A stretch of 64,000 bases of DNA, from assembly GCA_000010565.1 (NCBI GenBank), contig AP009389.1:186001-250000 (forward strand). Direction: 5' to 3'. The translations under genes and the position numbers were made by a program. Source of the DNA: Pelotomaculum thermopropionicum SI (GTDB lineage Bacteria > Bacillota > Desulfotomaculia > Desulfotomaculales > Pelotomaculaceae). Shown here one piece after another: positions 20,338 through 56,425 of the stretch; within the stretch, counting starts at the first letter, position 1; every line of letters begins with the position of its first letter. The notes under the pieces were generated by a model. It saw only the letters and a list, made by a program, of their open reading frames with translations, had not been told where the DNA came from and did not search any database.

Positions 20338-21399
20338 CTAAAAAAGGCGGATAATGTTATACAGGTTGTCCCGCTGGGCCGGCTGGAAGCCGGCCTCCCT
20401 GATGTTGTGCACCAGTTCCGCCAGAGAAGCTTTGAAGGAAACCCCCGTCGCCCGCACCACGTTTTCCTCCAGCATGGTGGAGCCGAAGTCGTTGGCCCCG
20501 AAAGCCAGGGCAATCTGGGCAATTTTCGTCCCCTGGGTCACCCAGGAAACCTGCAGGTTGGGCACGTTGTCCAGGTAAATCCTGGCCACGGCCAGGGTTC
20601 GCAGGTAATCCGCGGCGGAGGCCGCCCGCCCGCCCAGGGCGGTGTTTCCGGGCTGGTAGCTCCAGGGGATGAAGGCGGTAAAGCCGCCGGTTTCGTCCTG
20701 CAGGCGCCGGATTGCCTCCAGGTGGGCAATTCTTTCCGCCGGCGTTTCCACGCTGCCGAACATCATGGTGGCGGTACCCTTCAAACCGGCCAGGTGGGCC
20801 TCTTTCATCACTTCCAGCCAGCGGCCCGCCCCGATTTTGCGGGGGCTGATCAATTTCCGCACCCGGTCGGCCAGAATCTCCGCCCCGCCTCCGGGCAGCG
20901 AATCGAGGCCGGCGGCCGCCAGGCGGCGGATCACGGTCTCCAACGGCAGGCCGGAGGTGCGGGCCAGGTAGTCGATTTCCACCGGGGACAGGGAATGTAT
21001 TTGAACGGGGTAACGCTGCTTGATGGCCCGGAACAGGTCCTCGAAGTAGTCGAGATCCAGATCCGGGTGCAGACCCCCCTGCATCAAAATCTGGGTGCCC
21101 CCTGCCGCCAGGGTTTCCTCGATTTTTTTGAAAATTTCGGCGCGGCTGAGGACATAAGCCTCGGGGTGGCCGGGCGGCCGGTAAAAAGCGCAGAAGGCGC
21201 AGCCCGTCACGCAAACGTTGGTGTAATTGATGTTGCGGTCGGCCGCGAAGGTGACCCGCCGGTGGGGGTGCAGCCGGCGCCGCACCCGGTCGGCCAGATA
21301 GCCCAGGGTCAAAAGGTCCGCCCCGGTTAAAAGGCAAAGCCCCTCCTCCTCCGTAATCCTTTTCCCCTCAAGCACTTTGGATGCGATAGCACCGGTCAT
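20338..21399 (-). CDS. mqnC: Cyclic dehypoxanthine futalosine synthase
   Basis: This 353-residue radical SAM enzyme cyclises dehypoxanthine futalosine in the futalosine menaquinone pathway. The cluster motif is CVTGCAFCAF (CxxxCxxC), after FAADRNINYTN, followed by GGTQILMQGGLHPDL and LPGGGAEIL typical of MqnC/MqnE. It is the last gene of the minus-strand mqn operon and overlaps mqnA by 32 bp. A short CCGCC/GGCGG hairpin overlaps its stop codon. Confidence 0.95.
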   Translation of the reverse strand: MTGAIASKVLEGKRITEEEGLCLLTGADLLTLGYLADRVRRRLHPHRRVTFAADRNINYTNVCVTGCAFCAFYRPPGHPEAYVLSRAEIFKKIEETLAAGGTQILMQGGLHPDLDLDYFEDLFRAIKQRYPVQIHSLSPVEIDYLARTSGLPLETVIRRLAAAGLDSLPGGGAEILADRVRKLISPRKIGAGRWLEVMKEAHLAGLKGTATMMFGSVETPAERIAHLEAIRRLQDETGGFTAFIPWSYQPGNTALGGRAASAADYLRTLAVARIYLDNVPNLQVSWVTQGTKIAQIALAFGANDFGSTMLEENVVRATGVSFKASLAELVHNIREAGFQPAQRDNLYNIIRLF

Positions 21400-22228
21400 C
21401 TTCTTTCCCCCAGATGTTTAAAACTGCCGACGGCTCGGCCAGCCCGCATTCCGCGGCGCAGCGGTAGAAGTACATCAGGCCGTCCAGGTGATCCCAGTTC
21501 AAATCGAACTTAAGGCAGCGGAAATAATCTGACAGGACCGCTTCGGGCAGGGAGGTCAGGCTTTTTGCCCTGGCAACCAGTTCTTCGTGGTGCTCCTGCC
21601 CCCACTTTTTAGAGGAAATCATTCCCTTCCAGATGGCGGCCAGTTGCCGGGGCTGGCGGCGGGCAAAATCCGGCCTGGCAACCCACAGGGCAAACACCAT
21701 CGGGCGGCCGGTCCAGCGCTTCCATTCCTCCCCCAGGTCGTAGACGTGCAGGCTGCCGGCCCGGTTTACCTCCATAAGCGCCTCGTCGCCAATAACCAGT
21801 GATGCGTCCGGTTCGCCCCACCAGGCGGGGCTGCCGGGCGGCCGGGTGAAAAAAAGCGCTTTGACGCCGCAAAACCGTTGCAGCAGCACCTTCAAAAGCA
21901 CCACGCTGGTGGCGGAGTAGGGGGTTAGGGAAATGCGCCTGCCGGCCAGCCGCTCGGCCGGCAGGCGGCTGAGCAGGGCCACACTTCTCACCGGCCCGTC
22001 CGAGGCAATGGAGAGGCCGGGCAGGATCAGGCAGCTTTCCTGCTGCCGGGCGTACTCGATGGACGACACGGCGGTAACTTCCAGCAAACCTTCCCGGAAC
22101 ATGGCGTTGAGCTGGCTGGGGTGGTGGGCGCACAGCCTGGCCGGAACCTCCACCAGCCCCTCCTCAATGGCGTGGAATACCGGCAGGCAGTTTATGTAAG
22201 AAACTCGCCCAAGGCGCGGCCGTTCCAT
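21368..22228 (-). CDS. mqnA: Chorismate dehydratase
   Basis: 286 residues with the periplasmic-binding-protein-like MqnA fold. It converts chorismate to 3-[(1-carboxyvinyl)oxy]benzoate, the first step of the futalosine pathway. The N-terminus RLGRVSYINCLPVFHAIEEG and SIASDGPVRSVALLSRLP, TPYSATSVVLLKVLL and LVIGDEALM are family features. It is sandwiched between mqnE (1-bp gap) and mqnC (32-bp overlap). Confidence 0.93.
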   Translation of the reverse strand: MERPRLGRVSYINCLPVFHAIEEGLVEVPARLCAHHPSQLNAMFREGLLEVTAVSSIEYARQQESCLILPGLSIASDGPVRSVALLSRLPAERLAGRRISLTPYSATSVVLLKVLLQRFCGVKALFFTRPPGSPAWWGEPDASLVIGDEALMEVNRAGSLHVYDLGEEWKRWTGRPMVFALWVARPDFARRQPRQLAAIWKGMISSKKWGQEHHEELVARAKSLTSLPEAVLSDYFRCLKFDLNWDHLDGLMYFYRCAAECGLAEPSAVLNIWGKEDDRCYRIQSA

Positions 22229-22229
22229 A

Positions 22230-23342
22230 TTACAGGCTCCTTTCCGGGCCGTAGCGGCGGATGACGTTATACAGGGTGTCCCTCTCCACCGGCGTGCGGC
22301 CGGCCTCCCGGATCATTTGCAGAAAGGCTTCCGGCGGCTGGTACTGCGCCGTCTCCGCCCCCGCCTCGTGGGCGATGCGTTCCTCCCTGACCGTCCCGTC
22401 CAGGTCGTCCACGCCGAAGCTTAAGGACACCTGGGCGACCTTGGGGGTGATCATGATCCAGAAAGCCTTGATGTGATCGAAGTTGTCCAGCATCAGGCGG
22501 GCGATGGCCAGCGCTTTAAGGTCCATCATGCCGGTGGTGCCGGGCAGGTGCTCAAAAGACGTGTTTTTGGGGTGAAAGGCCAGGGGAATAAATGCCAGAA
22601 ACCCTCCGGTGCGGTCCTGCAGCTCCCGCAGGGCAATCAGGTGATCCACCCGGTCCTCAATGCTTTCCAGGTGGCCGTACAGCATTGTGGCATTGCTCCG
22701 GAAACCCAGCCGGTGCGCCTTTTCGTGCACTTCCAGCCATCTTTCGGGACCGATTTTTTTGCTGCAGATTCTTTTTCTCACGGCCGGGTTAAATATCTCG
22801 GCCCCCCCGCCGGGCAGGGAGCCCAGCCCTGCCTCTTTCAGCCGCAGCAATACTTCTTCCAGGTCCAGCCCGCTTATTTCACCTAAAAAGTCGATTTCCA
22901 CGGCGTCAAAAGCCTGAATGTGGACCTCCGGAAGAATTTCTTTAACCGTTCGCAGCATTTCCTCATAGTAGCTGAAGGGCAGGCTTTCGTTCAGGCCGCC
23001 GACGATGTGCACCTCGGTAATTCCCAGACCCCGCAGCTTTTCGGCCCGGGCGGCAATTTCCTCAATGGAGAGAGTATACGCTCCCCTGTCGCCGGGTTTT
23101 TTGCCGAAGGCGCACAGTTCGCACAGGTTCCGGCAGACGTTGGTGTGGTTGATGTGGGCGTTGTTGATGAAGAAAACGTCGTTTCCCACCTTGCGCCGCC
23201 GGGCGTAGTCGCTTAAAAGGCCAATGGCCGGCAGGTCGTCCGACTCCCACAGCCTGATCCCGTCTTCCCGGCTCAGGCGCCTGCCGTCCAGTACCTTGCG
23301 GGCCACGCCGGCCAGCGGGCCTTCTTCCAGGTTATGCACCAT
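22230..23342 (-). CDS. mqnE: Aminofutalosine synthase
   Basis: This 370-residue radical SAM enzyme joins the MqnA product with S-adenosylmethionine to make 6-amino-6-deoxyfutalosine. The cluster motif is CRNLCELCAFGK, preceded by FFINNAHINHTN and followed by GITEVHIVGGLNESLPFSYY and LPGGGAEIFNPAVR. It resembles mqnC throughout, as expected for paralogues. Its start overlaps the upstream phosphorylase gene by 11 bp. Confidence 0.95.
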   Translation of the reverse strand: MVHNLEEGPLAGVARKVLDGRRLSREDGIRLWESDDLPAIGLLSDYARRRKVGNDVFFINNAHINHTNVCRNLCELCAFGKKPGDRGAYTLSIEEIAARAEKLRGLGITEVHIVGGLNESLPFSYYEEMLRTVKEILPEVHIQAFDAVEIDFLGEISGLDLEEVLLRLKEAGLGSLPGGGAEIFNPAVRKRICSKKIGPERWLEVHEKAHRLGFRSNATMLYGHLESIEDRVDHLIALRELQDRTGGFLAFIPLAFHPKNTSFEHLPGTTGMMDLKALAIARLMLDNFDHIKAFWIMITPKVAQVSLSFGVDDLDGTVREERIAHEAGAETAQYQPPEAFLQMIREAGRTPVERDTLYNVIRRYGPERSL

Positions 23343-24210
23343 CTGGTCTCCTCCTTTTAAGGCCGATGTTTTCCGGGCGCAGCAGGGTTGGCTTGCGCAG
23401 GCCGCGGCAGGCGCATTCCGCCTCCAGGTTCACGCTTTCCAGGGCCTGCATGATGATGCTGCCGAAAGGAACGGCGTCCTCGAAAAAGATGTCTTTCAAT
23501 ACGCGGTACTCCCACGGTTTTACCGTGCCTTCGCCGTAATTCACGACCAGGTAAATGCCGGCGTAGCAGGCGCCGATTTCCCTGGCCAGGTATACCTCCG
23601 GGCACAGGCTCTGTCCCACCACGTCTGCCCCCCACTGGCGGAAGAGGGCTACTTCGGCGGGGCTTTCAAAATGCCTGCCGTCCGTGACCAGGTAGACGCC
23701 GCGGGAAAACACCCGTCCCGACGGGCTTCCTGCGGCTGCCTCCACCAGGGTGAGGCGCAGGGAAGGGCAGATGGGCTGGCGCATCACCAGCAGGTGCTCC
23801 TCGCCTATGCTTGTATCCCGCCGCATGGAAAAGTCTATGTAGTCGTCGGGAACGACAATGTCCCGGGGGTCCAGCAGGCGGTTGACGCTGCCCACCCCGC
23901 CTTCCGCTATTATCTTTTGCACCCCGGCCTCCCGGAAGACCCAGAACAGGCGGCGCGAGGCCTCGCCCCAGGGAATGCCGGGAATGCGTCCGTGCATTTT
24001 GGCGGCCAGCACCGTCCGGGGCCGCCTGCCTCCAGTTGTGAACAGCTTGAGCGGGGGACTTTCGCCGAAGGGGGTGCGGAAAATCAGGCCGGAGCCCAGA
24101 ATTTCTGTTCCGGTCCGGTTCAAATCCTCGGGGAAGCTGAGGGAGAAGGTGCCCGACCCGCCGATAAAGCCGATGTCCGCCCGGGGCACTTCTGCAGCAG
24201 AACTACGCAT
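23332..24210 (-). CDS. MTAP-family nucleoside phosphorylase of the mqn operon
   Basis: 292 residues, family 2 purine nucleoside phosphorylase/MTAP fold. It has GFIGGSGTF at the N-terminus, then the phosphate-binding region AAKMHGRIPGIPW, GGVGSVNRLLDPRDIVVPDD and the nucleoside pocket with VVGQSLCPEVYLARE. Placement between tetR and mqnE suggests it splits adenine from 6-amino-6-deoxyfutalosine (the MqnB step) or handles methylthioadenosine; substrate is inference. Usual MTAPs have a Met-Thr-x-xPE motif at this last site, here QSLCPE, which hints at a changed specificity. Confidence 0.8.
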   Translation of the reverse strand: MRSSAAEVPRADIGFIGGSGTFSLSFPEDLNRTGTEILGSGLIFRTPFGESPPLKLFTTGGRRPRTVLAAKMHGRIPGIPWGEASRRLFWVFREAGVQKIIAEGGVGSVNRLLDPRDIVVPDDYIDFSMRRDTSIGEEHLLVMRQPICPSLRLTLVEAAAGSPSGRVFSRGVYLVTDGRHFESPAEVALFRQWGADVVGQSLCPEVYLAREIGACYAGIYLVVNYGEGTVKPWEYRVLKDIFFEDAVPFGSIIMQALESVNLEAECACRGLRKPTLLRPENIGLKRRRPDGA

Positions 24211-24814
24211 GAAACCCCAACCCCCTCAGATTGTACTCCACCAAAGGGCCCGCCGCCTCTTCCAGGCTGGCCGGGTACCCCTTTCGCAGCCAGGAGAGCA
24301 CCACGTTGTAAAAAGTTCCTATAAAAGCGGCCGCCGCAATCCGGCTGTCCTGCGGCGGAATCAGGCCTGTCTCCATGGCCTCCCGGATGTCTTCCTCCAC
24401 CAGCTCGGCGAGCCGCCCGAGCAGGTCGGCCAGTTGTTCGCCGAAGGCCGGGTTGGACCCGGCGGTCTGCAGCAGGACCACCTTTGCCAGTTCCCGGTGC
24501 CTCCCTAAAGCTTCTATGGCCGCTTCCATTGATGCCTTTAGCTTTTCCCTGATGCCAAAGGCCCCTTTGCGCCTTTCGGCAATTTTTGAAATGACAGTTT
24601 CGTAAATTTCATCGACTACCGCGGCAAACAGCGCCTCCTTGTTGCGCAGGTACAGGTAAATGGTGCCGGTGGCCACGCCGGCCCGCCGGGCCACCTCTTT
24701 TATTGAGGTGCCGTGGTAGCCGTGCTCCGCAAACACAACCTGGGCCGCCTGAAGGATGGCCTTTAGCTTTTCCTCCAGCTTTTTGCCCACCTTTTCCGTT
24801 CTACGGTAGGCCAT
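24203..24814 (-). CDS. TetR-family regulator, probable repressor of the mqn operon
   Basis: 203 residues from ATG 24814 (GGGGTGAT upstream); a TTG at 24829 is an alternative. The N-terminal helix-turn-helix reads AEHGYHGTSIKEVARRAGVA then TGTIYLYLRNKEALFAAVVD, typical of TetR proteins close to FadR/YsiA. It is first in the operon, overlapping the phosphorylase gene by 8 bp. An ATGAA-N6-TTCAT palindrome lies just upstream, between the -10 and the start, so autorepression of the whole menaquinone operon is likely. Ligand unknown; FadR-like members bind acyl-CoA. Confidence 0.88.
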   Translation of the reverse strand: MAYRRTEKVGKKLEEKLKAILQAAQVVFAEHGYHGTSIKEVARRAGVATGTIYLYLRNKEALFAAVVDEIYETVISKIAERRKGAFGIREKLKASMEAAIEALGRHRELAKVVLLQTAGSNPAFGEQLADLLGRLAELVEEDIREAMETGLIPPQDSRIAAAAFIGTFYNVVLSWLRKGYPASLEEAAGPLVEYNLRGLGFHA

Positions 24815-24832
24815 CCAATCACCCCGCAAGAA

Positions 24833-24848
24833 ATGAATATCGGTTCAT
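24833..24848. promoter_or_regulatory. TetR-type operator candidate
   Basis: ATGAATATCGGTTCAT is an inverted repeat (ATGAA/TTCAT) of the TGAAT-N4-(A/G)TTCA kind used by FadR-like TetR regulators. It sits 12 bp downstream of the minus-strand -10 box and about 19 bp upstream of the tetR ATG. Confidence 0.6.
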
Positions 24849-24860
24849 AATTTCATTGCT

Positions 24861-24890
24861 ATTTTATTCCGGGCCCGGTGACTATGTCAA
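24861..24890 (-). promoter_or_regulatory. Promoter of the tetR-mqn operon
   Basis: On the minus strand TTGACA (24890-24885), an 18-bp spacer and TAAAAT (24866-24861). Confidence 0.7.
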
Positions 24891-24931: not shown

Positions 24932-25951
24932 ATGGCCTTTAAGCCGGCGCGGGTAATATTTGAACAGGACGCGTTAAAATATCCGCTGGGGGAAAAGCTA
25001 TACAGATTTTTCAGGGATAAAGGCACGGATGTCAGCTTTGCCGCCTCCCACAACAGGGTTAGTGCCATTCCCGGCAGGACCCGTTCTGAAAAGTATTTTG
25101 AGGCCAAAAGGACGCTGGTGGTCGGAGTGCGCCGCACCACGGCCTTCGAGACCTGCAAGCCGTCGGCCCACTTTCAGCTGCCCTTGGCCACCTCCTGTCC
25201 CGGCAAGTGTGAATACTGCTACCTCCTGACCAACCTGGGCAAAAAGCCGTACGTCCGCATCTACGTCAATATAGAAGAAATTTTAAGCGCTGCCCGCGGC
25301 TATATTGAGGACAGAAAGCCACAGGTGACGGTTTTTGAAGGGGCTGCCACCTCCGACCCGGTCCCGGTCGAGCCCTATACCGGGGCTTTGGCAAGGGCTG
25401 TCGAGTTTTTCGGCGGCCAGGAGTACGGCCGCTTCCGGTTTGTTACAAAATTTACCGAAGTCGATACGCTGCTGGATGTTCCCCATAACGGGCATACCAG
25501 ATTCCGGTTCAGCATAAATACGCCGGAAGTGATCAGGAGGTTCGAGCACGCCACCCCGCCGCTGGCGGAAAGGCTGGCAGCCGCCTGGAAAGTGGCGGCC
25601 GCCGGTTACCCGCTGGGATTTTTGGTGGCTCCGATCATCCTCTATGACGGATGGAGGGACAGCTACCGGGATTTATTTAAAACCGCCGCGGCCGGGCTGA
25701 ACGGCAAAGTTTATGACCTCACCTTTGAGTTCATCACCCACCGGTTTACCAAAAGGGCAAAGGGCACCATCCTGGAGGTCTTTCCCAGCACCCGGCTGGA
25801 CCTTGACGAAGAAGCCAGGGCTTTTAAATTCGGGCAGTTCGGGTACGGCAAATACGTTTACCCGAAGGAGCTGTTTTCCGACGCTAAAATCTATTTTGAG
25901 GGTTTGGCGGGGGAATATTTCCCGGGTTCGAAAGTGGAATATTTTGTGTAG
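24932..25951 (+). CDS. splB: Spore photoproduct lyase
   Basis: This 339-residue radical SAM repair enzyme reverses the 5-thyminyl-5,6-dihydrothymine lesion made by UV in spores, without excision. The cluster motif is CPGKCEYCYL (CxxxCxxC) after HFQLPLATS, followed by YVRIYVNIEEIL. The conserved tail KYVYPKE...YFPGSKVEYFV is present, although the residue after KYVYP differs from the Cys region of some homologues. It shows that the organism forms endospores. It is monocistronic, with a terminator at 25995-26042. Confidence 0.95.
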   Translation: MAFKPARVIFEQDALKYPLGEKLYRFFRDKGTDVSFAASHNRVSAIPGRTRSEKYFEAKRTLVVGVRRTTAFETCKPSAHFQLPLATSCPGKCEYCYLLTNLGKKPYVRIYVNIEEILSAARGYIEDRKPQVTVFEGAATSDPVPVEPYTGALARAVEFFGGQEYGRFRFVTKFTEVDTLLDVPHNGHTRFRFSINTPEVIRRFEHATPPLAERLAAAWKVAAAGYPLGFLVAPIILYDGWRDSYRDLFKTAAAGLNGKVYDLTFEFITHRFTKRAKGTILEVFPSTRLDLDEEARAFKFGQFGYGKYVYPKELFSDAKIYFEGLAGEYFPGSKVEYFV

Positions 25952-26130: not shown

Positions 26131-27261
26131 GTGAGGGTGGAAACAATTACGACTTCCGATGGGAAAACCCGGTACATGCTGGTTGATTCGGACGGCGAAC
26201 CCGTCCTTCCCGTCATGCGGTTCATCAAGTTCAAGGATAACAGCGGAGCCGCACGGAACAGCCTCCGCGCCTACTGCCAGCACCTGAAACTCTTTTTCGA
26301 GTTCCTTGAGCAGGAGGAGCTGGATTACCGTAAAATCAACATAGACGAGATGGCTGCCTTTTTGCGCTGGCTTCAGAACCCCTACGGGAACCTGAAAGTA
26401 ATCCCGGTGACGCCCGTGACGTCCCCCCGCGGACCGGCCACCGTGAACACCGTTATCTCCACGGTCCTCAATTTCTACGACTACCTTATGCGCCACGAGG
26501 ACTACAGCGTCCAGCTCTCTGAAAGGCTGAAAAAAACCATCCCGGGGAGCAGGAGGGGTTTTAAAGACTTTCTCTACCACATCAACAAGGACAAGGAGTA
26601 TCCGGCCAAGATTTTGAAGGTTAAGGTCCGCCGTTCCCGGCCCAAGACCATACCCAAAGAGCAGGTGGGCAAGTTAATTGACGCCTGCTCAAATTTAAGG
26701 GACAAATTTTTAATCCAGCTTTTGTGGGAAAGCTCCATGCGCATCGGCGAGGCCCTGGCCCTGTGGCTGGAAGACTTTGAGCCCGACGGACAGAAGATCC
26801 ACATCCGGGACAGGGGCGAACTTCCCAACCTCGCCGAGATCAAAACCATCTGCAGCCCCCGGACGGTGGACGTTTCCCCGGATTTAATCAACCTGTTTTT
26901 CGACTATGTGGCTGAATTTCATACGGACGAAGTGGATACGAATCACATTTTTATTAAGCTGTCTGGAAAAAACCAATACCAACCCATGGAGTACCAGGAC
27001 GTTGCCTCCCTTTTCCGCAGGCTAAAGGCCAAAACGGGAATTGACGTCAGCCCCCACATCCTCCGGCACAGTTCCTTAACCGAACTGCGCCGGGCCGGCT
27101 GGAAGCCGGAACACTTACGAAAAAGGGCTGGACATGCCCATGTCCAGACCACCATGCAAATTTACCTGCACCCAAGCGACGAAGACCTGCGCAAGGATTG
27201 GGAGAAGGCAGAGGAAAAAATGCGCCTTAAACGGCAGCAAAAGGAGGGCTCTGAACATTGA
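26131..27261 (+). CDS. tnpA: Tn554-type tyrosine recombinase TnpA
   Basis: 376 residues. It has an N-terminal SAM-like core-binding domain and a C-terminal tyrosine-recombinase catalytic domain: RIGEAL with the first Arg, then HILRHSSLTELRRAGWKPEH (HxxR), the GHAHVQTTMQIYLHP region with the late His and the nucleophilic Tyr. Together with the next two genes it matches in size and order the TnpA (about 361), TnpB (about 630) and TnpC (about 125) set of Tn554-family site-specific transposons. Its stop overlaps the TTG start of tnpB. Confidence 0.9.
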   Translation: MRVETITTSDGKTRYMLVDSDGEPVLPVMRFIKFKDNSGAARNSLRAYCQHLKLFFEFLEQEELDYRKINIDEMAAFLRWLQNPYGNLKVIPVTPVTSPRGPATVNTVISTVLNFYDYLMRHEDYSVQLSERLKKTIPGSRRGFKDFLYHINKDKEYPAKILKVKVRRSRPKTIPKEQVGKLIDACSNLRDKFLIQLLWESSMRIGEALALWLEDFEPDGQKIHIRDRGELPNLAEIKTICSPRTVDVSPDLINLFFDYVAEFHTDEVDTNHIFIKLSGKNQYQPMEYQDVASLFRRLKAKTGIDVSPHILRHSSLTELRRAGWKPEHLRKRAGHAHVQTTMQIYLHPSDEDLRKDWEKAEEKMRLKRQQKEGSEH

Positions 27262-29228
27262 GTACGGTTTACAGGCCGGCCCCGACGCCGGCAAAATTGC
27301 AGGAAATCGAGGAAACCCTGACGGGCTGCTGGAAAGAGGATGTGTGGGACATTACTGACCCCATCTTTGATGAGTTTCGGTCTGAACGTTGGACACTACC
27401 CAATAAAATTATTGACTTTTCTCGTCTACAGCCAGGCATTAAGGAAGAGGTCAAGTTTTTCTTTGTTCACCGCCTCCGTGAACACACCTTGCGGTTACAA
27501 ACGGCGGTCGTTTACGGATTTTGCTTTGCCCGCTTTGCTGACTTTCTGGAACGGGCCTATCCCAGGATCAGAAGTTTTACGTATTTGGAGATAGAGAGAG
27601 TTATGACCAGGTGGCGTTCTTACCTGGTTGAACAGGGGGTTTCGGTCAGCAAAAAAGGCCGTTTATCCAGTACCCAATACGAAACTCTGTTACAGCAGGT
27701 ATATCAGTTTATGGTCAACTTCTACGACGAGCGGGAGGAGTTTGAAAAGAACGTCTGGGACATGCGGAAAATACCGGGAGCGAAATATACCCAAAACAAA
27801 GCTCATTACCTGCTTTCTTTTACGGACATTCCCCTTCCCTTCCGGCCCCTGGCTAAAAGATACCTGAAGGTACGGGTAGGCATTCGGTCATATGCCCAAT
27901 GTGCAACAGACTTGATGGCTCTGCGTTTGTTTCTGCGTTTCATCCACAAGCAATATCCTGACTGGAAAGACCTTAAGAGTTTATCTCGTAAGGATATGGA
28001 AAATTATCTTCTATGGTATCGGTCGTACACAGAAGGCTGGCAAAAACGGCACTATGAATATTTAGTCAGCCTGCGGAACTTTTTAGATTACATACAACAG
28101 GCGGGGTATCCGGAGGCGCCAGAGAAACCTTACGTTTCGCTGTTGTTTAAGGAAGATTTTCCTAAGTTGGCTAAGCGATCGGAAGAAGATATTAAATTTA
28201 TCCCTGAAGGGGTTCTAAGGCAACTGGAAGAAAATCTGGACCAGTTGACGCCTCCGGAGTACATCCCTGTAATCGTTATTCTTCGTGCCACGGGCTGGCG
28301 CAGCTCCGACATCCTGAACCTCCGTTACGATAACTGCCTGGACCGTACTGCCCAAGGATGGTGGCTCTGCGGGGATATTCTGAAAACGCAGGTGCTAAAC
28401 CACCGCGTTCCCATTACCGACGAGGTGGCTACAGTGGTTCAGGCAGTAGTTGATGAGGTTGAGGAAAAAAGCACGCCTGAAAACAACCCTAAAAAATTGT
28501 TGTTTGTCCGCCTTGATGGAAAACGCAGGGGTCGGCCACCAATGGGGTCGTCCATTCGGCGAGCCCTTAACATATTGGCCCAAAAATGTAGTATTGTAGA
28601 CGACCAAGGCCGGTTATTCCACTTTGGCAACCACGCTTTCCGCCACACCAAGGGCGTCGAACTAATTAACAACGGGATGAACCTTGTCCATGTCCAGAAG
28701 TGGATGGCCCACGCCTCCCCAGAAATGACCCTGCGCTACGCCAGGATTCTCGACACAACCATGCGGAAGTCCTGGGAAGAGGCCACTAAAAACGGCCTTT
28801 TCCGGATTGACCCTACAGGGAAGCCGGTAAAAATTGACCCTTCCGACGTTGAGAACGAGGGCCTGATCGAGTGGGAGTATATTCGTTACAACCTAGACGC
28901 CGTGAGGACGCCTTTGGGTTATTGCCTCAAGCCCCACAAGGTGGAGTGTAAGCATCAGCTGAACCCTTGCCTAACCTGCCGCAATTTGTGCATCACCCCT
29001 GATTTTATTCCGCAGTTCGAGGCGGAAATCAGGGAGGTAAAGGCTGTCATCGAGCGCGGCAAGGCCCAGGGCCGGACCATCTGGGTGGAGAAAAACGAGG
29101 TCATTCTGGGACGTTACGAAGCGATTCTGACTGTTCTAAAGGAAGGCCATACCCACCACCTGGCAGGAAAAAAAGGGCGGGAGTACGTGGGGGAGGAACG
29201 TTTAAATGTCCGGCAAACACCAGCGTAA
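27258..29228 (+). CDS. tnpB: Tn554-type tyrosine recombinase TnpB
   Basis: 656 residues from TTG 27258 (TTGA overlap with tnpA). The large N-terminal region is followed by a catalytic domain with RATGWRSSDILNLRYDNCLD, HFGNHAFRHTKGVELINNGM (HxxR), WMAHASPEMTLRYARI with the nucleophile tyrosine, and a cysteine-bearing tail (CKHQLNPCLTCRNLCI) seen in TnpB homologues. It acts with TnpA in strand exchange during transposition. Confidence 0.9.
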   Translation: MSTVYRPAPTPAKLQEIEETLTGCWKEDVWDITDPIFDEFRSERWTLPNKIIDFSRLQPGIKEEVKFFFVHRLREHTLRLQTAVVYGFCFARFADFLERAYPRIRSFTYLEIERVMTRWRSYLVEQGVSVSKKGRLSSTQYETLLQQVYQFMVNFYDEREEFEKNVWDMRKIPGAKYTQNKAHYLLSFTDIPLPFRPLAKRYLKVRVGIRSYAQCATDLMALRLFLRFIHKQYPDWKDLKSLSRKDMENYLLWYRSYTEGWQKRHYEYLVSLRNFLDYIQQAGYPEAPEKPYVSLLFKEDFPKLAKRSEEDIKFIPEGVLRQLEENLDQLTPPEYIPVIVILRATGWRSSDILNLRYDNCLDRTAQGWWLCGDILKTQVLNHRVPITDEVATVVQAVVDEVEEKSTPENNPKKLLFVRLDGKRRGRPPMGSSIRRALNILAQKCSIVDDQGRLFHFGNHAFRHTKGVELINNGMNLVHVQKWMAHASPEMTLRYARILDTTMRKSWEEATKNGLFRIDPTGKPVKIDPSDVENEGLIEWEYIRYNLDAVRTPLGYCLKPHKVECKHQLNPCLTCRNLCITPDFIPQFEAEIREVKAVIERGKAQGRTIWVEKNEVILGRYEAILTVLKEGHTHHLAGKKGREYVGEERLNVRQTPA

Positions 29229-29595
29229 CACGGAAGGAATGAAAAAACACGCCCGGCGCAAGAGCGAGGAAACCGTGAAAAAGGTTGACGAGGCCATCCA
29301 AAGGCTGATTAAAGCCGGGGAGAAAATCAACTTCAACAGTGTGTCCCTGGAGGCCAGGGTGAGCAAGTCCTATCTTTACACCCACCAGGAGATCAAGGAA
29401 CGCATCGAGAACCTCCGCAAGCAGCAGGAGGCCGTGCCTTCTCCGAAGCATATTAAACGGGAAATGACCGATGCCAGCAAGGACATCATCATTGCCGCGA
29501 AGAACAAGCGCATCAAGGAACTGGAGGCCGAAAACAAGCGGTTGAAAGAGGAGCTGAAAATACTGCAAGGAAAACTTTACGAATCGCTGGAGTAG
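29206..29595 (+). CDS. tnpC: Tn554-type accessory protein TnpC
   Basis: 129 residues, overlapping tnpB by 23 bp. It is highly charged, with an N-terminal helix-turn-helix-like segment (INFNSVSLEARVSKSYLYTH) and a C-terminal coiled coil (NKRIKELEAENKRLKEELKI). In Tn554 TnpC is not a recombinase but influences transposition frequency and orientation; the same role is inferred here. Confidence 0.85.
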   Translation: MSGKHQRNTEGMKKHARRKSEETVKKVDEAIQRLIKAGEKINFNSVSLEARVSKSYLYTHQEIKERIENLRKQQEAVPSPKHIKREMTDASKDIIIAAKNKRIKELEAENKRLKEELKILQGKLYESLE

Positions 29596-51278: not shown

Positions 51279-51393
51279 AAAGTTTCTTTTTTTAATTTAA
51301 TTTTCTTAAAATAATGCAGTCGTTTTTTTAAAAAGAGAAGTTTTTTATTAACCAAAAAATATAAGAGCGAAACTTTTGGGAGGTGAGAGATAT

Positions 51394-52440
51394 TTGAAAA
51401 TCAAGATTGCTTTCAAAGTAGCTGCCGTTGTCCTGTTGGCCGCTGCTTTTTTGGCAGCAGCAGCCGGTTGCGGGAACAAGAAGGAGGAAGACAAGGCCAG
51501 GCCGGTTGTTAAAGTCGGATATTTTCCGAACATGACTCACGCCCAGGCGCTGGTGGGGTTGAGTGACGGAACTTTTCAAAAGGCACTGGGAGACAATGTG
51601 ACTATTGAAGAACACACTTTTAACGCGGGCCCCGCTGAGATAGAAGCGCTGCTGGCCGGCCAAATCGACCTCGGGTACATAGGACCGGTGCCTGCTATTA
51701 ACGGGTTTGTCACGTCCAAAGGGGAGCTGAAGATTGTTGCCGGGGCGGCCGATGCCGGCGTGGTACTCGTGGCGCGGAAGGGTTCGAATATCAAGAGCGT
51801 CAGCGATCTTAACGGCAAAAAAGTAGCCGTTCCCCAAATCGGCAATACTCAGGACATCTCTTTGAGACACCTTTTGAGCGAGGCCGGCCTCAAGGACGCG
51901 GCAAAAGGCGGTACGGTGACGATAGTTCCGGCGGATAACCCCGACATTTTGACCCTTATTTCCAGGGGGGAAGTTGACGCTGCGCTGGTTCCGGAACCGT
52001 GGGGCTCCAGAATCGTAAAACAGGCCGGCGCAAGCATTGTTCTGGACGCCGGCGAGGTCTGGCGGGGCGGAAAGTACACCACCGCCGTTGTAATTGCCAG
52101 CAATAAATTCCTTAAGGAGCACCCTGATCTGGTGCAAAAGTGGCTGGAAGCCCACGTCGATCTGACTGAGCGCATTAACAGGGATAAAAACAGCGCCAAA
52201 ACCGTCGTTAACAGCCAGATAGAAAAACTGACGAAGAAAAGCCTGCCTGAAGACGTGCTCAACAGCTCGTTTGAGAGGATTGTTGTTACCTATAACCCTG
52301 AAACTGAATCCGTCAGGGAGTTTGTTAAACTTTCCGTTGAAAACGGCTATATTAAGGGCAATCCGGATATTGCCGGTCTTTTTAGTCTCGACCTGTTAAA
52401 TAAAGTGCTCGAACAAAAGGGTTTACAGCCGCTGCAGTAA
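51394..52440 (+). CDS. NitT/TauT-type ABC transporter substrate-binding lipoprotein
   Basis: 348 residues from TTG 51394 behind GGGAGGTGAG. A lipoprotein signal (AAVVLLAAAFLAAAAGC) precedes a type II periplasmic-binding fold like SsuA/TauA: VKVGYFPNMTHAQALVGLSD, GQIDLGYIGPVPAINGFVTS, VALVPEPWGSRIV-like PEPW motif. Such proteins carry sulfonates, nitrate, or taurine, but here the operon encodes sulfate activation, so sulfate or an organosulfonate is the likely substrate. Confidence 0.87.
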   Translation: MKIKIAFKVAAVVLLAAAFLAAAAGCGNKKEEDKARPVVKVGYFPNMTHAQALVGLSDGTFQKALGDNVTIEEHTFNAGPAEIEALLAGQIDLGYIGPVPAINGFVTSKGELKIVAGAADAGVVLVARKGSNIKSVSDLNGKKVAVPQIGNTQDISLRHLLSEAGLKDAAKGGTVTIVPADNPDILTLISRGEVDAALVPEPWGSRIVKQAGASIVLDAGEVWRGGKYTTAVVIASNKFLKEHPDLVQKWLEAHVDLTERINRDKNSAKTVVNSQIEKLTKKSLPEDVLNSSFERIVVTYNPETESVREFVKLSVENGYIKGNPDIAGLFSLDLLNKVLEQKGLQPLQ

Positions 52441-52550
52441 CTTGCGCCTGCAACTATTTGGTAAAATCGTTTAAGGTGCGGCGTTGTCTTTAGCGAACGA
52501 CTTTGCGGAGCGCCGGTCGCAGGGCTTTATCTTTAGAAGGAGGTGTTCAG

Positions 52551-53387
52551 ATGTTAAGAATTGTGGGCGCCGGAAAGATTTTTAACACAAATAACGGGAA
52601 TACGAAAGCCCTTGAAGATGTAAACCTGACAGTTGCCAGAGGTGAATTCGTCTCTTTGGTGGGCCCTTCCGGCTGCGGCAAGTCAACCATCTTAAACATC
52701 ATTGCCGGCCTGGAGAGGGCCAGCAGCGGCAAAGTTTTGAAGGAAGGGCGTGAAATAACCGGCGCCGGGCCGGACAGGGTGGTGATGTTCCAGGAACCTG
52801 CCCTGTTTCCCTGGCTCAGAGTAATAGACAACGTGGAATACGGCATGAAAATTGCCGGTATTCCGAAGCGGGAGAGAAGGGAAAAAGCCCTGCACTATTT
52901 GAAGATGGTCCACCTGACCAGGTTTGCCTCGTCCTACATCCACGAGCTGTCAGGCGGCATGCGCCAGCGGGTGGCCCTGGCCCGGGCGCTGGCCATGGAC
53001 TCCGACATTTTGTTGATGGATGAACCTTTTGCCGCCTTAGACAGCCAGACCAGAAGCATTCTTCATGGGGAGCTCCAGCAGATATGGGAAGCCACAAGAA
53101 AGACAATCATTTTTGTCACCCACAACGTTGAGGAAGCTGTATTGCTTGCAGACAGGGTAGCGGTAATGGCCGCCAACCCAGGCCGGATTAAAAGGGAATT
53201 TGAAATTAAACTGCCCAGGCCGAGGGACATGGAAAACGTTGAATTTGTATACTTAGTGGGCCAGATCATGAAAGAGTTAAAGGATGAGGTGGAAAAGGTT
53301 GCCAGGTCAGAATTCGACAGCGGCTGGTCTCTTAAAAAGAGCACTTTTCTACTTAGCCCTGATAGCAATCTGGGAGGGAGTATTTAG
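52551..53387 (+). CDS. NitT/TauT-type ABC transporter ATPase
   Basis: 278 residues from ATG 52551 (AAGGAGGTG just upstream). Walker A VGPSGCGKSTILNIIAGL, Q-loop MFQEPALFPWL, signature LSGGMRQRVALARALAMDSD, Walker B ILLMDEPFAALD and the H-loop THNVEEA are complete. The 3' end overlaps the permease frame by 104 bp; the last 25 residues may be dispensable. Confidence 0.93.
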   Translation: MLRIVGAGKIFNTNNGNTKALEDVNLTVARGEFVSLVGPSGCGKSTILNIIAGLERASSGKVLKEGREITGAGPDRVVMFQEPALFPWLRVIDNVEYGMKIAGIPKRERREKALHYLKMVHLTRFASSYIHELSGGMRQRVALARALAMDSDILLMDEPFAALDSQTRSILHGELQQIWEATRKTIIFVTHNVEEAVLLADRVAVMAANPGRIKREFEIKLPRPRDMENVEFVYLVGQIMKELKDEVEKVARSEFDSGWSLKKSTFLLSPDSNLGGSI

Positions 53388-54078
53388 GGCCGGTTTATGG
53401 CCCGAATACCTCTTCCCCTCCCCTGTGGGGGTGTTGCAGAACCTGGTAACGGGATTTCAGGACAGCACTTTTCTCATCGCCATCGGAGCTAGCATGAAAA
53501 GGGTTGTGGTGGGCTATTCCATCTCGCTGGCTGTCGGGCTGTCGTTGGGCCTGCTGATCGTCTCCTCCCGTTATCTGGACGAAACGCTGAGCCCCCTTCT
53601 GCTGGGCTTGCAGACCCTTCCGAGCATCTGCTGGCTTCCCTTGGCCATCCTCTGGTTCGGCCTCGGTGAGGACTCAATAATTTTTGTAATCGCCATAGGA
53701 TCGATTTTTTCAGTAACCATGGGTACCCTTTCGGGCATAAAAAACGTGCCCCCGATTTATATGAGGGTGGCCAAAACAATGGGGGCTAAGGGGCTGAAGG
53801 CATATACCACCGTCGTTATACCTGCCGCCTTCCCGGCCATTATAGGAGGCATGAAGCAGGGCTGGTCTTTTGCCTGGAGGGCTTTAATGGCGGGCGAACT
53901 TTTATCTCCGAAAGACGGGCTGGGCTACGTCCTGACCATTGGCAGGGACCTGCATGACATGAACCAGGTTGTGGGCGTGATGATTATAATCATCATTATC
54001 GGCCTCATTATAGATAAGTTCATTTTCGGGAGAATCGAGCACTCAATTAGAAGCCGCTGGGGTTTAACCGGAGCGTGA
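53284..54078 (+). CDS. NitT/TauT-type ABC transporter permease
   Basis: 264 residues with six membrane segments. The first, LFYLALIAIWEGVFRAGLWP, is encoded at 53344-53403, so translation must begin inside the ATPase gene (ATG 53284, or TTG 53299). The binding-protein-dependent loop (EAA-like) is at MGAKGLKAYTTVVIPAAFPA. It forms the membrane channel of the transporter. Confidence 0.9.
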   Translation: MRWKRLPGQNSTAAGLLKRALFYLALIAIWEGVFRAGLWPEYLFPSPVGVLQNLVTGFQDSTFLIAIGASMKRVVVGYSISLAVGLSLGLLIVSSRYLDETLSPLLLGLQTLPSICWLPLAILWFGLGEDSIIFVIAIGSIFSVTMGTLSGIKNVPPIYMRVAKTMGAKGLKAYTTVVIPAAFPAIIGGMKQGWSFAWRALMAGELLSPKDGLGYVLTIGRDLHDMNQVVGVMIIIIIIGLIIDKFIFGRIEHSIRSRWGLTGA

Positions 54079-54119
54079 CAGTTCCCGGAGAAAATGAAGC
54101 AGGAGGTAAAACTACAGAC

Positions 54120-54746
54120 ATGGCGGTGCAAAAGGCGTCAAATATCGTATGGCATGAGGGTAGCGTGTCTAAAAAGGACCGGGAAAGGTTCCTGGGGCAA
54201 AAAGGCGTCGTGGTCTGGTTTACCGGCCTTTCAGGTTCAGGCAAGTCGACTGTGGCGCGGGAAGTCGAGGCGAGGCTGTTGAAACTGGGGTGCCTGTCCT
54301 ACGTTTTGGACGGGGACAACATCCGTTTCGGGCTCAACAATAACCTGGGCTTTTCGCCCGAAGACCGCGCCGAAAACATCAGAAGAGTAAGCCATGTCGC
54401 CAGGCTGTTTGCCGACGCCGGAATCATAACCCTCACCGCCTTTATATCCCCCTACCGGGCCGACCGGGAGGCGGCCAGGGCCCTCTTGGGGCCGGGGGAG
54501 TTTATAGAGATTTACGTCCGGTGCTCACTGGAGGAATGCGAAAAAAGAGACGCCAAGGGCCTTTACAAAAAGGCCAGGGCCGGGGAAATAAAAGAATTCA
54601 CCGGAATTTCCGCCCCCTACGAAGAACCCCTGTCGCCCGAACTGGTGCTGGAAACGGAAAGGGAGACCCCGCAAGAGTCGGCTGAAAAAGTAATCCGGTT
54701 CCTGGCGGACCGGGGGATCATCAGCAAAGGGGTGTGCCGGCATTGA
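54120..54746 (+). CDS. cysC: Adenylylsulfate kinase
   Basis: About 208 residues from ATG 54120 (AGGAGG 13 bases before); a GTG at 54075 overlapping the permease stop is an alternative. It phosphorylates APS to PAPS. P-loop WFTGLSGSGKSTVAREVEA, DGDNIRFGLNNNLGFSPEDR, FISPYRADREAARALL and KGLYKKARAGEIKEFTGISA are family motifs. As the locus reduces APS directly through AprBA, CysC may serve PAPS-dependent sulfation or buffer APS. Confidence 0.94.
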   Translation: MAVQKASNIVWHEGSVSKKDRERFLGQKGVVVWFTGLSGSGKSTVAREVEARLLKLGCLSYVLDGDNIRFGLNNNLGFSPEDRAENIRRVSHVARLFADAGIITLTAFISPYRADREAARALLGPGEFIEIYVRCSLEECEKRDAKGLYKKARAGEIKEFTGISAPYEEPLSPELVLETERETPQESAEKVIRFLADRGIISKGVCRH

Positions 54747-56425
54747 ACGCAGGCCGGGTGAAAATAGAAAGAAAATCGGCTGACATAGTGATAGTGGGGG
54801 GCGGGACGGCGGGTTGTTTTGCAGCGGTGACCATAAAGGAGATGTGCCCGTCGGCCGACGTCCTGGTGGTGGAAAAGGCCCATGTCAAGAGAAGCGGATG
54901 CCTGGCGGCGGGGGTCAATGCCATCAACGCGTACCTCGGTCCCGGCGAGACGCCGGAGAGCTACCTGGATTATGTAAAAAGGGATTCGGCCGGGCTGGTC
55001 AGGGAAGACCTGGTGTTGTCTATCGGGCAGCGGCTGAACCGGGTGACGGAGAAGCTGGAGTCGTGGGGCCTTCCTTTTCTGAAGGATGAGTCGGGCCGCT
55101 ACAAGTTCCGCGGAAAGAGAAGCGTTGAGATAAACGGCGAGCACATAAAACCTGTCATTGCGTCCGCCCTGCGGCGGTCGGGGGCCGGGATCCTCAACAG
55201 GGCCGTGGCTACCAACTATGTCGTCAAAGACGGTCGGGCTGCAGGTGTTTTTGCTTTTTCCGCCAGGGAAGAGAAGTTTTACGTTATTTCCGCAAAAGCG
55301 GTGATCTGTGCCGCCGGCGGGGCCGCAGGCATATACAGGCCCAACAACGGCGGCCCGGCCAGGCATAAGATGTGGTACTGCCCTTTCAATGTCGGCACCG
55401 GGTTTGCCATGGGACTCAGGGCCGGGGCGGAAATGACCACCTTTGAGATGCGCTTCATAGCCTTAAGGATAAAAGACGTCCTTTCTCCAACGGGAACCGT
55501 TGTCCAGGGCGTCAAGGCCCGCCAGATCAACGCCCTGGGCGAGGAATACCTGAACAGGTACGGGAGCGATTCAACCCCGGTGAGGCTTTACGCGACGGTT
55601 GAGGAGAACAAGGCCGGGCGGGGGCCGTGTTATCTGGACCTGACCGGCCTTCCGGATTCAGACAACTCCCGCCTGAAGGAAGCCTATCTGAACATGTCTC
55701 CCGGAATTGTCCTGAAATGGGCTGACGAAGGGGTTGAGCCCAACGGCAAACCGCTGGAGATCTGCGGGTCAGAACCTTACGTTGTGGGAGGCCACGGCCA
55801 GGCGGGATACTGGGTGGACAGCCGCAGGAGGACGACGCTCGAGGGGTTGTTTGCCGCAGGGGACGCAGCCGGGGGAGCCCCCAAAAAGTACGTTTCAGGA
55901 TGTCTTGCCGAGGGGGAAATCGCCGCCCTGGCCGCCCTGGAGTACATCAGGGGCATTGAGGTACCTGCAGCCGGCGATCAGGAGGTTGCGGCGGAGTTGG
56001 GCCGGGTGTTTGAACCGCTGGGGAGGCAAAAAGGGGCGGCCCCGGATGACTATGAGGAAAGGCTGCAGAAAATCATGGACGAGTACGCCGGCGGTATTTC
56101 TGCAAACTACGAGCTGTCCGGGCCTAAATTGCTTATAGCCCGGGAACTGCTGCGTGAGCTTCAGGACGAAATAAGCGCCAACATATCAGCCGGGGACATG
56201 CATGAACTGGTGAAGGCCCATGAAGTGATCGACAGGGCGCTGGTAGCCAGGGTGCTGGTGGAACACCTTTTGTACCGGAAGGAAACCAGGTGGAGGTCCT
56301 ACCAGGAAAGGGTAGACTACCCTGTACGGGACGACAGGCGCTGGCTTGTCTTCGTAAACTCCGTCTATGACGGTGAAACGAAAAACATCCGGATAATCGA
56401 GCGCCCGTGGAAAGGGTTGGGGTAA
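54743..56425 (+). CDS. aprA: APS reductase alpha subunit, AprA type
   Basis: About 560 residues. TTG 54743 is chosen: it forms a TTGA overlap with the cysC stop and lies 10 bases after AAAGGGG. The FAD fold opens with ADIVIVGGGTAGCFAAVTIK, followed by HVKRSGCLAAGVNAINAYLG, CAAGGAAGIYRP, TFEMRFIALRIKDVLSPTGT and GLFAAGDAAGGAPKKYVSGC. With AprB it reduces APS to sulfite and AMP. It is shorter than AprA of dissimilatory sulfate reducers (about 620-670), which fits the biosynthetic setting. Confidence 0.93.
   Translation: MNAGRVKIERKSADIVIVGGGTAGCFAAVTIKEMCPSADVLVVEKAHVKRSGCLAAGVNAINAYLGPGETPESYLDYVKRDSAGLVREDLVLSIGQRLNRVTEKLESWGLPFLKDESGRYKFRGKRSVEINGEHIKPVIASALRRSGAGILNRAVATNYVVKDGRAAGVFAFSAREEKFYVISAKAVICAAGGAAGIYRPNNGGPARHKMWYCPFNVGTGFAMGLRAGAEMTTFEMRFIALRIKDVLSPTGTVVQGVKARQINALGEEYLNRYGSDSTPVRLYATVEENKAGRGPCYLDLTGLPDSDNSRLKEAYLNMSPGIVLKWADEGVEPNGKPLEICGSEPYVVGGHGQAGYWVDSRRRTTLEGLFAAGDAAGGAPKKYVSGCLAEGEIAALAALEYIRGIEVPAAGDQEVAAELGRVFEPLGRQKGAAPDDYEERLQKIMDEYAGGISANYELSGPKLLIARELLRELQDEISANISAGDMHELVKAHEVIDRALVARVLVEHLLYRKETRWRSYQERVDYPVRDDRRWLVFVNSVYDGETKNIRIIERPWKGLG

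Follow-up and report, generated by a model that had tools for sequence, protein, structure and literature searches.

How a futalosine-type route to menaquinone may be completed where neither MqnB nor MqnD can be recognised, and what a regulator encoded at the head of such an operon controls, are the questions raised by a five-gene locus of Pelotomaculum thermopropionicum SI. The DNA analysed here (the window) comprises 64,000 bases, positions 186001-250000 of a genome of 3,025,375 bases (3.03 Mb) in one contig, and the locus, tetR-mqnZ-mqnE-mqnA-mqnC, is read from its minus strand. We consider it fairly probable that this is a self-regulated operon for the early menaquinone pathway, in which a local TetR-family protein would have one or very few targets and MqnZ would act in the place of MqnB. 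Comparison with relatives shows that a dyad at the promoter is conserved, that mqnB and mqnD are absent, and that MqnZ nearly excludes the MqnB-MqnD pair.

A conserved dyad at the operon promoter

The operon is preceded by a -35 box, TTGACA (24885-24890, minus strand; TTGAC in all eight mqn promoters compared), and, after an 18 bp spacer (17 bp in P. propionicicum), by a -10 box, TAAAAT (24861-24866, minus), the former read from the sequence and the latter also from the alignment. Twelve bases past the -10 box, and ahead of GGGGTG, a Shine-Dalgarno-like sequence of tetR (24820-24825, minus), stands the operator-like dyad ATGAACCGATATTCAT (ATGAA-N6-TTCAT; 24833-24848, minus), which occupies the same place in each of the eight promoters.

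Relatives were taken from 80 named loci, the best 80 of 321 found with an MqnZ profile, and a tetR orthologue was counted where a protein of at least 50% identity was encoded directly before mqnZ-mqnE-mqnA-mqnC. Six loci among these 80 have this arrangement, namely PH28_bin88, P. propionicicum (L139), whose five-gene order is that of the window, and four Moorella species; their TetR proteins are 57-82% identical to that of the window. With the window, this gives seven loci, and in all seven [AT]TGAAY-N4-RTTCATT lies just past the -10 box. An eighth promoter with the same dyad precedes mqnZEAC in Clostridiales K_7_2_bin.50 (L145, genome G120). No such tetR was found within the 20.8 kb around mqnZEAC there, and an orthologue (42% identity over residues 1-201) is encoded elsewhere in the genome, with a dyad 22 bp ahead of its own start codon in addition to the one before mqnZ. 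Four loci with mqnZEAC and no such tetR adjacent (L138, L144, L146, L147) have no dyad matching the pattern within the sequence examined, and the TetR matches in their genomes are weak (65 bits at most); L148, which also has mqnZEAC without this tetR alongside, has no dyad either. In an ungapped alignment of the eight mqn promoters, mean agreement was 7.25 of 8 in the arms, 4.75 in the spacer and 3.5 in the bases 60-120 upstream. The protein thus combines the two marks of a TetR-family autorepressor, a TetR_N domain and a conserved dyad at its own promoter. Judged by this comparison, the regulatory unit is real, and this TetR very probably has the palindrome as its operator.

By itself, the occurrence of the pattern is no proof. 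A search for WTGAAYN4RTTCATT, with the same pattern read backwards as control, returned three places and no control match in the P. thermopropionicum genome; of the three, only the mqn site falls outside open reading frames, and no promoter other than the mqn one carries the pattern. For seven relatives (G120 and G125-G130) the counts were 4, 3, 2, 1, 1, 2 and 1, the mqn site included each time, against 0, 1, 2, 1, 1, 0 and 1 control matches. With one to four places per genome and zero to two control matches, the evidential weight rests on the conserved place of the dyad in relatives. The number of sites beyond mqn and tetR is close to chance, which argues for a local regulator. The same counts would also suit a chance dyad, or the site of another TetR, with the linked TetR acting elsewhere, and G120 indeed encodes a second TetR (L335, open reading frame 896-1483, 195 amino acids) with a TGAAY-N4-RTTCA dyad on each side, which accounts for two of the four places in that genome. 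Similar dyads may therefore serve other TetR proteins too. We nevertheless hold this explanation to be very improbable for the mqn site, where position and arms are kept in eight promoters while far-upstream bases are not, and where the unlinked tetR of G120 bears the same kind of site.

Within the operon, all on the minus strand, tetR (24203-24814, 203 amino acids) scores 63.4 bits against TetR_N (PF00440) and 39 bits against TetR_C_24; its start was set at the ATG at 24814 instead of the TTG at 24829 given in the open reading frame list, as the orthologues share this start position, whether with ATG or with TTG. It is followed by mqnZ (23332-24210, 292 amino acids), which encodes an MTAP-like 'phosphorylase' (PF01048, 108 bits), by mqnE (22230-23342), encoding a radical S-adenosylmethionine (SAM) aminofutalosine synthase (TIGR03700, 488.3 bits, passing the cut-off of 434.55), by mqnA (21368-22228), encoding a chorismate dehydratase (PF02621, 248.9 bits), and by mqnC (20338-21399), encoding a cyclic dehypoxanthinyl futalosine synthase (TIGR03699, 515.5 bits, passing the cut-off of 428.1). 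Three of the four junctions overlap, by 8 bp (tetR/mqnZ), 11 bp (mqnZ/mqnE) and 32 bp (mqnA/mqnC), and mqnE and mqnA are 1 bp apart. A first-pass annotation of this DNA had described these five genes as overlapping or nearly touching, placed a palindrome just downstream of a good -10 box, and proposed that the operon has a TetR regulator of its own and, at its promoter, a dyad resembling an operator. The coordinates agree with the first of these statements, ATGAACCGATATTCAT behind TTGACA-18-TAAAAT with the second, and the comparison of relatives with the third. It had also named what would speak against this picture, a tetR kept without the palindrome; all seven tetR-mqnZEAC loci have the palindrome, and the unlinked case has both sites. 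A spore photoproduct lyase gene, starting at 24932, is divergent from tetR in the window; none is listed ahead of tetR in P. propionicicum.

MqnZ and the steps of MqnB and MqnD

MqnZ was named by Ravcheev and Thiele (2016; PMC4746308) from co-localisation and the absence of mqnD, and was predicted to replace MqnD. The paper names P. thermopropionicum SI, among genomes without mqnD, as having mqnZ with mqnEAC, notes the similarity to PF01048, and makes no mention that we found of how the operon is regulated. The main text of PMC5738691 does not contain the word mqnZ. The window gene is the MqnZ of that prediction, a PF01048 protein co-localised with mqnE, mqnA and mqnC in a genome without mqnD. 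This absence, already claimed in the first-pass annotation, extends to the whole genome, which holds two PF02621 genes, that of the window included, both grouping in the MqnA clade and not with MqnD in a tree to which three mqnB loci (L229, L230, L234) contributed no sequence. Nor does the genome have a match to the MqnB model TIGR03664 at an E-value of 1e-10, and the 11 NCBIfam families that MqnZ matches do not include TIGR03664. Relative to the canonical futalosine pathway (MqnA, MqnE, optionally MqnX, MqnB, MqnC, MqnD), P. thermopropionicum therefore shares MqnA, MqnE and MqnC, and differs in having MqnZ and neither an MqnB match nor MqnD.

We surveyed 120 genomes, that of P. thermopropionicum (G000) included. 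Orthologues of MqnZ occur in 38. Matches to TIGR03699, a model which also picks up MqnE, occur in 81 genomes, among them all 38 with MqnZ, and the 39 genomes that lack such a match are all without MqnZ. The MqnC cut-off is passed in 76 genomes, 37 of them with MqnZ; the one MqnZ genome that falls short, G016, is 64% complete. MqnB exceeds its cut-off in 25 genomes, with an adjoining PF02621 match in every case, and does so in one of the 38 MqnZ genomes (G078) against 24 of the other 43 with a TIGR03699 match (Fisher's exact test, 9e-8). A single PF02621 match is found in 32/38 against 6/43 (Fisher 1e-10); the extra matches of G002, G003, G112 and G114 were not assigned to MqnA or MqnD. Exactly two PF01048 proteins were counted, by eye, in 32 of the 38 MqnZ genomes. 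Together, these counts argue that MqnZ replaces the mqnB-mqnD pair and not mqnD alone. What is new here is that MqnZ occurs only with genes of the MqnC/MqnE family (38/38) and nearly excludes the pair (37/38 without MqnB over the cut-off).

The layout of complete clusters bears on the same point. Eight of the best 80 of the 321 loci comprise mqnL, mqnP, mqnM (UbiX), mqnE, mqnA, mqnC, mqnZ and an amidohydrolase gene, neighbouring matches being no more than 234 bp apart, which leaves no space for a further gene between them. A search confined to the 80 loci detected nothing resembling MqnB or MqnD at an E-value of 1e-8, with queries that recovered 24 of 24 mqnB-mqnD control loci. By gene content, MqnZ is the sole candidate for both missing steps within the eight clusters. 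The one amidohydrolase scanned (L153) falls below every listed cut-off; 5'-deoxyadenosine deaminase is its second-best NCBIfam family, and aminofutalosine deaminase its fourth-best (155 bits, cut-off 320). A search of the P. thermopropionicum genome for aminofutalosine deaminase gave one partial match of 36% near the MTAP locus and two of 27%.

The proposal made for P. thermopropionicum in section 9 of PMC4746308 is narrower, in that MqnZ would replace MqnD alone; the purine would then be removed by the second PF01048 protein of the genome, an MTAP/MTIP-type phosphorylase encoded beside mtnA. The association of MqnZ with a single PF02621 gene accords with this, as do genomes with MqnD and without MqnB, such as G025, which has one PF01048 protein. 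We find it somewhat unlikely all the same, given that MqnZ retains the PNP/MTAP fold and the purine-site residues, is nearly as strict in excluding mqnB as in excluding mqnD, and adjoins the amidohydrolase in the eight clusters. The second MqnA of the genome was considered as a stand-in for MqnD and rejected as a general answer, since 32/38 MqnZ genomes have a single PF02621 gene. A comparison of MqnC specificity positions (58 sequences from MqnZ genomes, 32 from others) revealed differences, for example at 284 and 191, from which nothing was drawn, because the sets are phylogenetically different too.

The active site of MqnZ offers a further view of its chemistry. Against the MTAP model TIGR01694 the protein scores 114.8 bits, below the cut-off of 274.85, and it is 24-28% identical to solved MTAPs. 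Its AlphaFold2 (AF2) model (predicted local distance difference test, pLDDT, 82.0) is closest to the MTAP 3t94 (Z score 25.0, root-mean-square deviation 3.2, 244 residues aligned) and also matches MTAN and the Helicobacter pylori futalosine hydrolase entry 4bmx (Z 20.6-21.6). We compared 38 MqnZ sequences with 28 neighbouring MTAPs, with residue roles assigned by analogy to MTAP and PNP structures. The presumed phosphate-binding Arg, which precedes a His, is kept in all 28 MTAPs and replaced in all 38 MqnZ proteins, by Met in 34 (Met72 in the window), Ile in three and Leu in one. The Thr-Ala-Ala of MTAP becomes Glu/Asp-Gly-Gly (Glu-Gly-Gly in the window), and its Met becomes Gln200, while Phe181 and Asn224, presumably of the purine site, are retained in 38/38. 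MqnZ thus shares the fold of MTAP/MTIP and departs from it in these positions and in its score. With the phosphate Arg gone and the purine site kept, true phosphorolysis is doubtful; the unusual MTAP-like protein of the first-pass annotation stands. Asn224 weakly suggests a 6-oxopurine, and hence futalosine over aminofutalosine, given that neighbouring MTAPs also carry Asn.

These residues weigh on another explanation for why mqnB and mqnD are missing together, one which would make mqnD needless. MqnZ would release a 1-phosphate, MqnC would cyclise it, and a methylthioribose-1-phosphate isomerase with an aldolase-type enzyme would yield 1,4-dihydroxy-6-naphthoate and dihydroxyacetone phosphate. 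Such chemistry parallels the salvage of methylthioribose 1-phosphate, and the genome does hold mtnA (TIGR00512, 458 bits, cut-off 279) beside its MTAP gene. The loss of the phosphate Arg in 38/38 MqnZ proteins, the Glu or Asp in place of Thr in the next motif, and the compactness of the eight clusters, where neither an isomerase nor an aldolase gene would fit between mqnL and the amidohydrolase gene, render this branch improbable.

In 37 MqnZ stretches of relatives (L067-L103), a gene of an adenylate kinase family was present in 28, mostly directly upstream of mqnZ, and a gene of a SAM methyltransferase family in 15, one member of each family having been identified. In six Selenomonad-type loci (L193, L202, L206, L211, L212, L213), two tandem MqnE-matching stretches precede mqnC-mqnZ, and no MqnA match was reported in the locus.

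The regulator, its relation to FadR and its ligand

The regulator is, by sequence, a distant relative of FadR. Its best NCBIfam match is the Bacillus FadR (YsiA) model NF053878 (102.7 bits, short of the cut-off of 200), Bacillus FadR structures are its best PDB sequence match (28-32% identity), and the YsiA-like TetR_C_4 is passed (32.1 bits, cut-off 21). The two proteins share a fold (Z 18.7-19.9) and a GTIYLY recognition helix. The arm spacing of the Bacillus FadR box presumably differs from that of the mqn dyad.

The first-pass annotation had gone further, likening the operator to those of acyl-CoA-sensing, FadR-like regulators and tying quinone supply to fatty-acid oxidation. We consider a FadR-type acyl-CoA sensor distinctly improbable at this locus. 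The score reached is half the FadR cut-off. Arg109, a key residue of FadR according to PMC13176608, which also gives the FadR motif LAIVTQLELRQSN, corresponds to Ala118 in the window and to Ala, Gly or Pro in 7/7 aligned orthologues. Bacillus FadR governs a beta-oxidation regulon, whereas the window TetR appears to have few targets, and the two other pattern sites of the genome fall within open reading frames. The structural neighbours of its AF2 model (pLDDT 87.1) are mixed; EthR, FadR, MtrR, EthR2, FasR and TtgR all fall at Z 18-21, and with such regulators ranking so closely no ligand follows from the fold search. Among the binding sites for which we searched, that of Thermus FadR, TTRNACYNRGTNYAA, as given in PMC5597230, is unlike the mqn dyad; no written consensus for Sulfolobus FadR was found in the part of PMC6449355 examined, nor one for Bacillus FadR in the literature searched. 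Acyl-CoA sensing by this TetR is possible, with no specific support. Of the first-pass interpretation, then, the dedicated TetR, the operator-like dyad, the unusual MTAP-like protein and the lack of mqnD are supported, and the link to FadR, acyl-CoA and fatty-acid oxidation is not, the sole pattern site outside open reading frames being the mqn one.

The only hint to a ligand comes from one genome, G120, and points to naphthoquinone precursors. There (L342, 5854-10024), the unlinked tetR is followed by ATP-binding cassette (ABC) ATPase and permease genes; menA (TIGR00751, 222.5 bits, cut-off 102.15) is convergent to the permease gene, and a gene for an NMT1-type binding protein is divergent from menA. 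This neighbourhood is a candidate locus for naphthoate uptake and prenylation, and an aromatic compound of the quinone pathway is a more likely inducer than an acyl-CoA.

A model of the operon and its implications

The mechanism that we infer, in DNA binding, repression, ligand and MqnZ chemistry alike, would run as follows. TetR, presumably as a dimer, would bind ATGAA-N6-TTCAT just past the -10 box and so block its own promoter together with the tightly packed mqnZ-mqnE-mqnA-mqnC. MqnA would form 3-enolpyruvylbenzoate and MqnE aminofutalosine, reactions established for these families. MqnZ would most likely remove the purine from the nucleoside in MqnB's place, by hydrolysis or with an altered phosphate site, and MqnC would cyclise its product. 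The reaction of MqnD would fall to MqnZ itself or to an enzyme not yet recognised. In a bolder version, which we regard as unlikely, the MTAP-derived MqnZ, its phosphate site lost, would jointly with MqnC convert futalosine, or a cyclised derivative of it, into 1,4-dihydroxy-6-naphthoate and thereby cover the MqnB and MqnD steps alike, with the Pelotomaculum-Moorella set placed under a quinone-pathway TetR that elsewhere fronts a putative naphthoate importer by menA.

Several observations weigh against the self-regulated operon with MqnZ in the place of MqnB. On the regulatory side, some mqnZEAC loci lack this tetR alongside (L138, L144-L148), the eight promoters amount to fewer than eight independent cases given the close relationship of the four Moorella loci, control matches in the relatives (0-2) are about as numerous as non-mqn sites, and the motif is not confined to this TetR, similar sites flanking another in G120. 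On the enzymatic side, MqnZ coexists in G078 with MqnB and an adjoining PF02621 gene; G114 matches TIGR03664 at 84 bits, short of the cut-off, and its second PF02621 match is split; and in G028 and G082 (99% and 95% complete) mqnEAC is accompanied by neither MqnZ nor mqnB-mqnD. Moreover, 19 of the 43 non-MqnZ genomes with a TIGR03699 match also lack MqnB, which makes the absence of MqnB weak evidence when taken alone. Finally, the window MqnZ departs from its family at positions 76 and 81, both Arg in 36/38. Residues 75-81 are encoded at 23968-23988 (minus strand); 36 of the 38 aligned proteins have W75, R76 and R81, and the window protein and that of P. propionicicum have R75 and W81 with no Arg at 76, which looks like an exchange of Trp and Arg close to the former phosphate site.

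Elsewhere in the genome, a second menaquinone cluster (C1:1499441-1504297; L104, 9441-14297) contains the second mqnA, an mqnP-like gene, mqnL (TIGR03701, 676.8 bits, cut-off 495.9), a demethylmenaquinone methyltransferase gene (these four within C1:1499441-1503481) and a polyprenyl-diphosphate-synthase-like gene that scores below its cut-off; no copy of the operator pattern was found in it. Close to this cluster, at C1:1494026-1497490, lies an identical repeat of the 3465 bases of a recombinase-type mobile element of the window (26131-29595, plus strand), whose three genes, for proteins of 376, 656 and 129 amino acids, were recognised by eye. Further along the window (51376-56425, plus strand), translations inspected by eye indicate genes for a binding protein, an ABC ATPase and a permease, followed by genes for an adenosine 5'-phosphosulphate (APS)-kinase-like protein and an APS-reductase-like flavoprotein.

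TetR autorepression as such is ordinary, and MqnZ is itself a prediction of 2016, whose role is sharpened here to the gap left by MqnB and MqnD. Syntrophic propionate degraders depend on menaquinone to oxidise succinate, and the futalosine route is an acknowledged target for antibacterial agents. In the literature searched we found no description of a tetR-dyad regulator of menaquinone supply in anaerobes, for which the conserved pair at this locus is a concrete candidate. In a branch that dispenses with MqnB and MqnD, two steps of a widespread pathway lack an assigned enzyme, and the exclusion pattern of MqnZ makes this two-step question directly testable with one protein.

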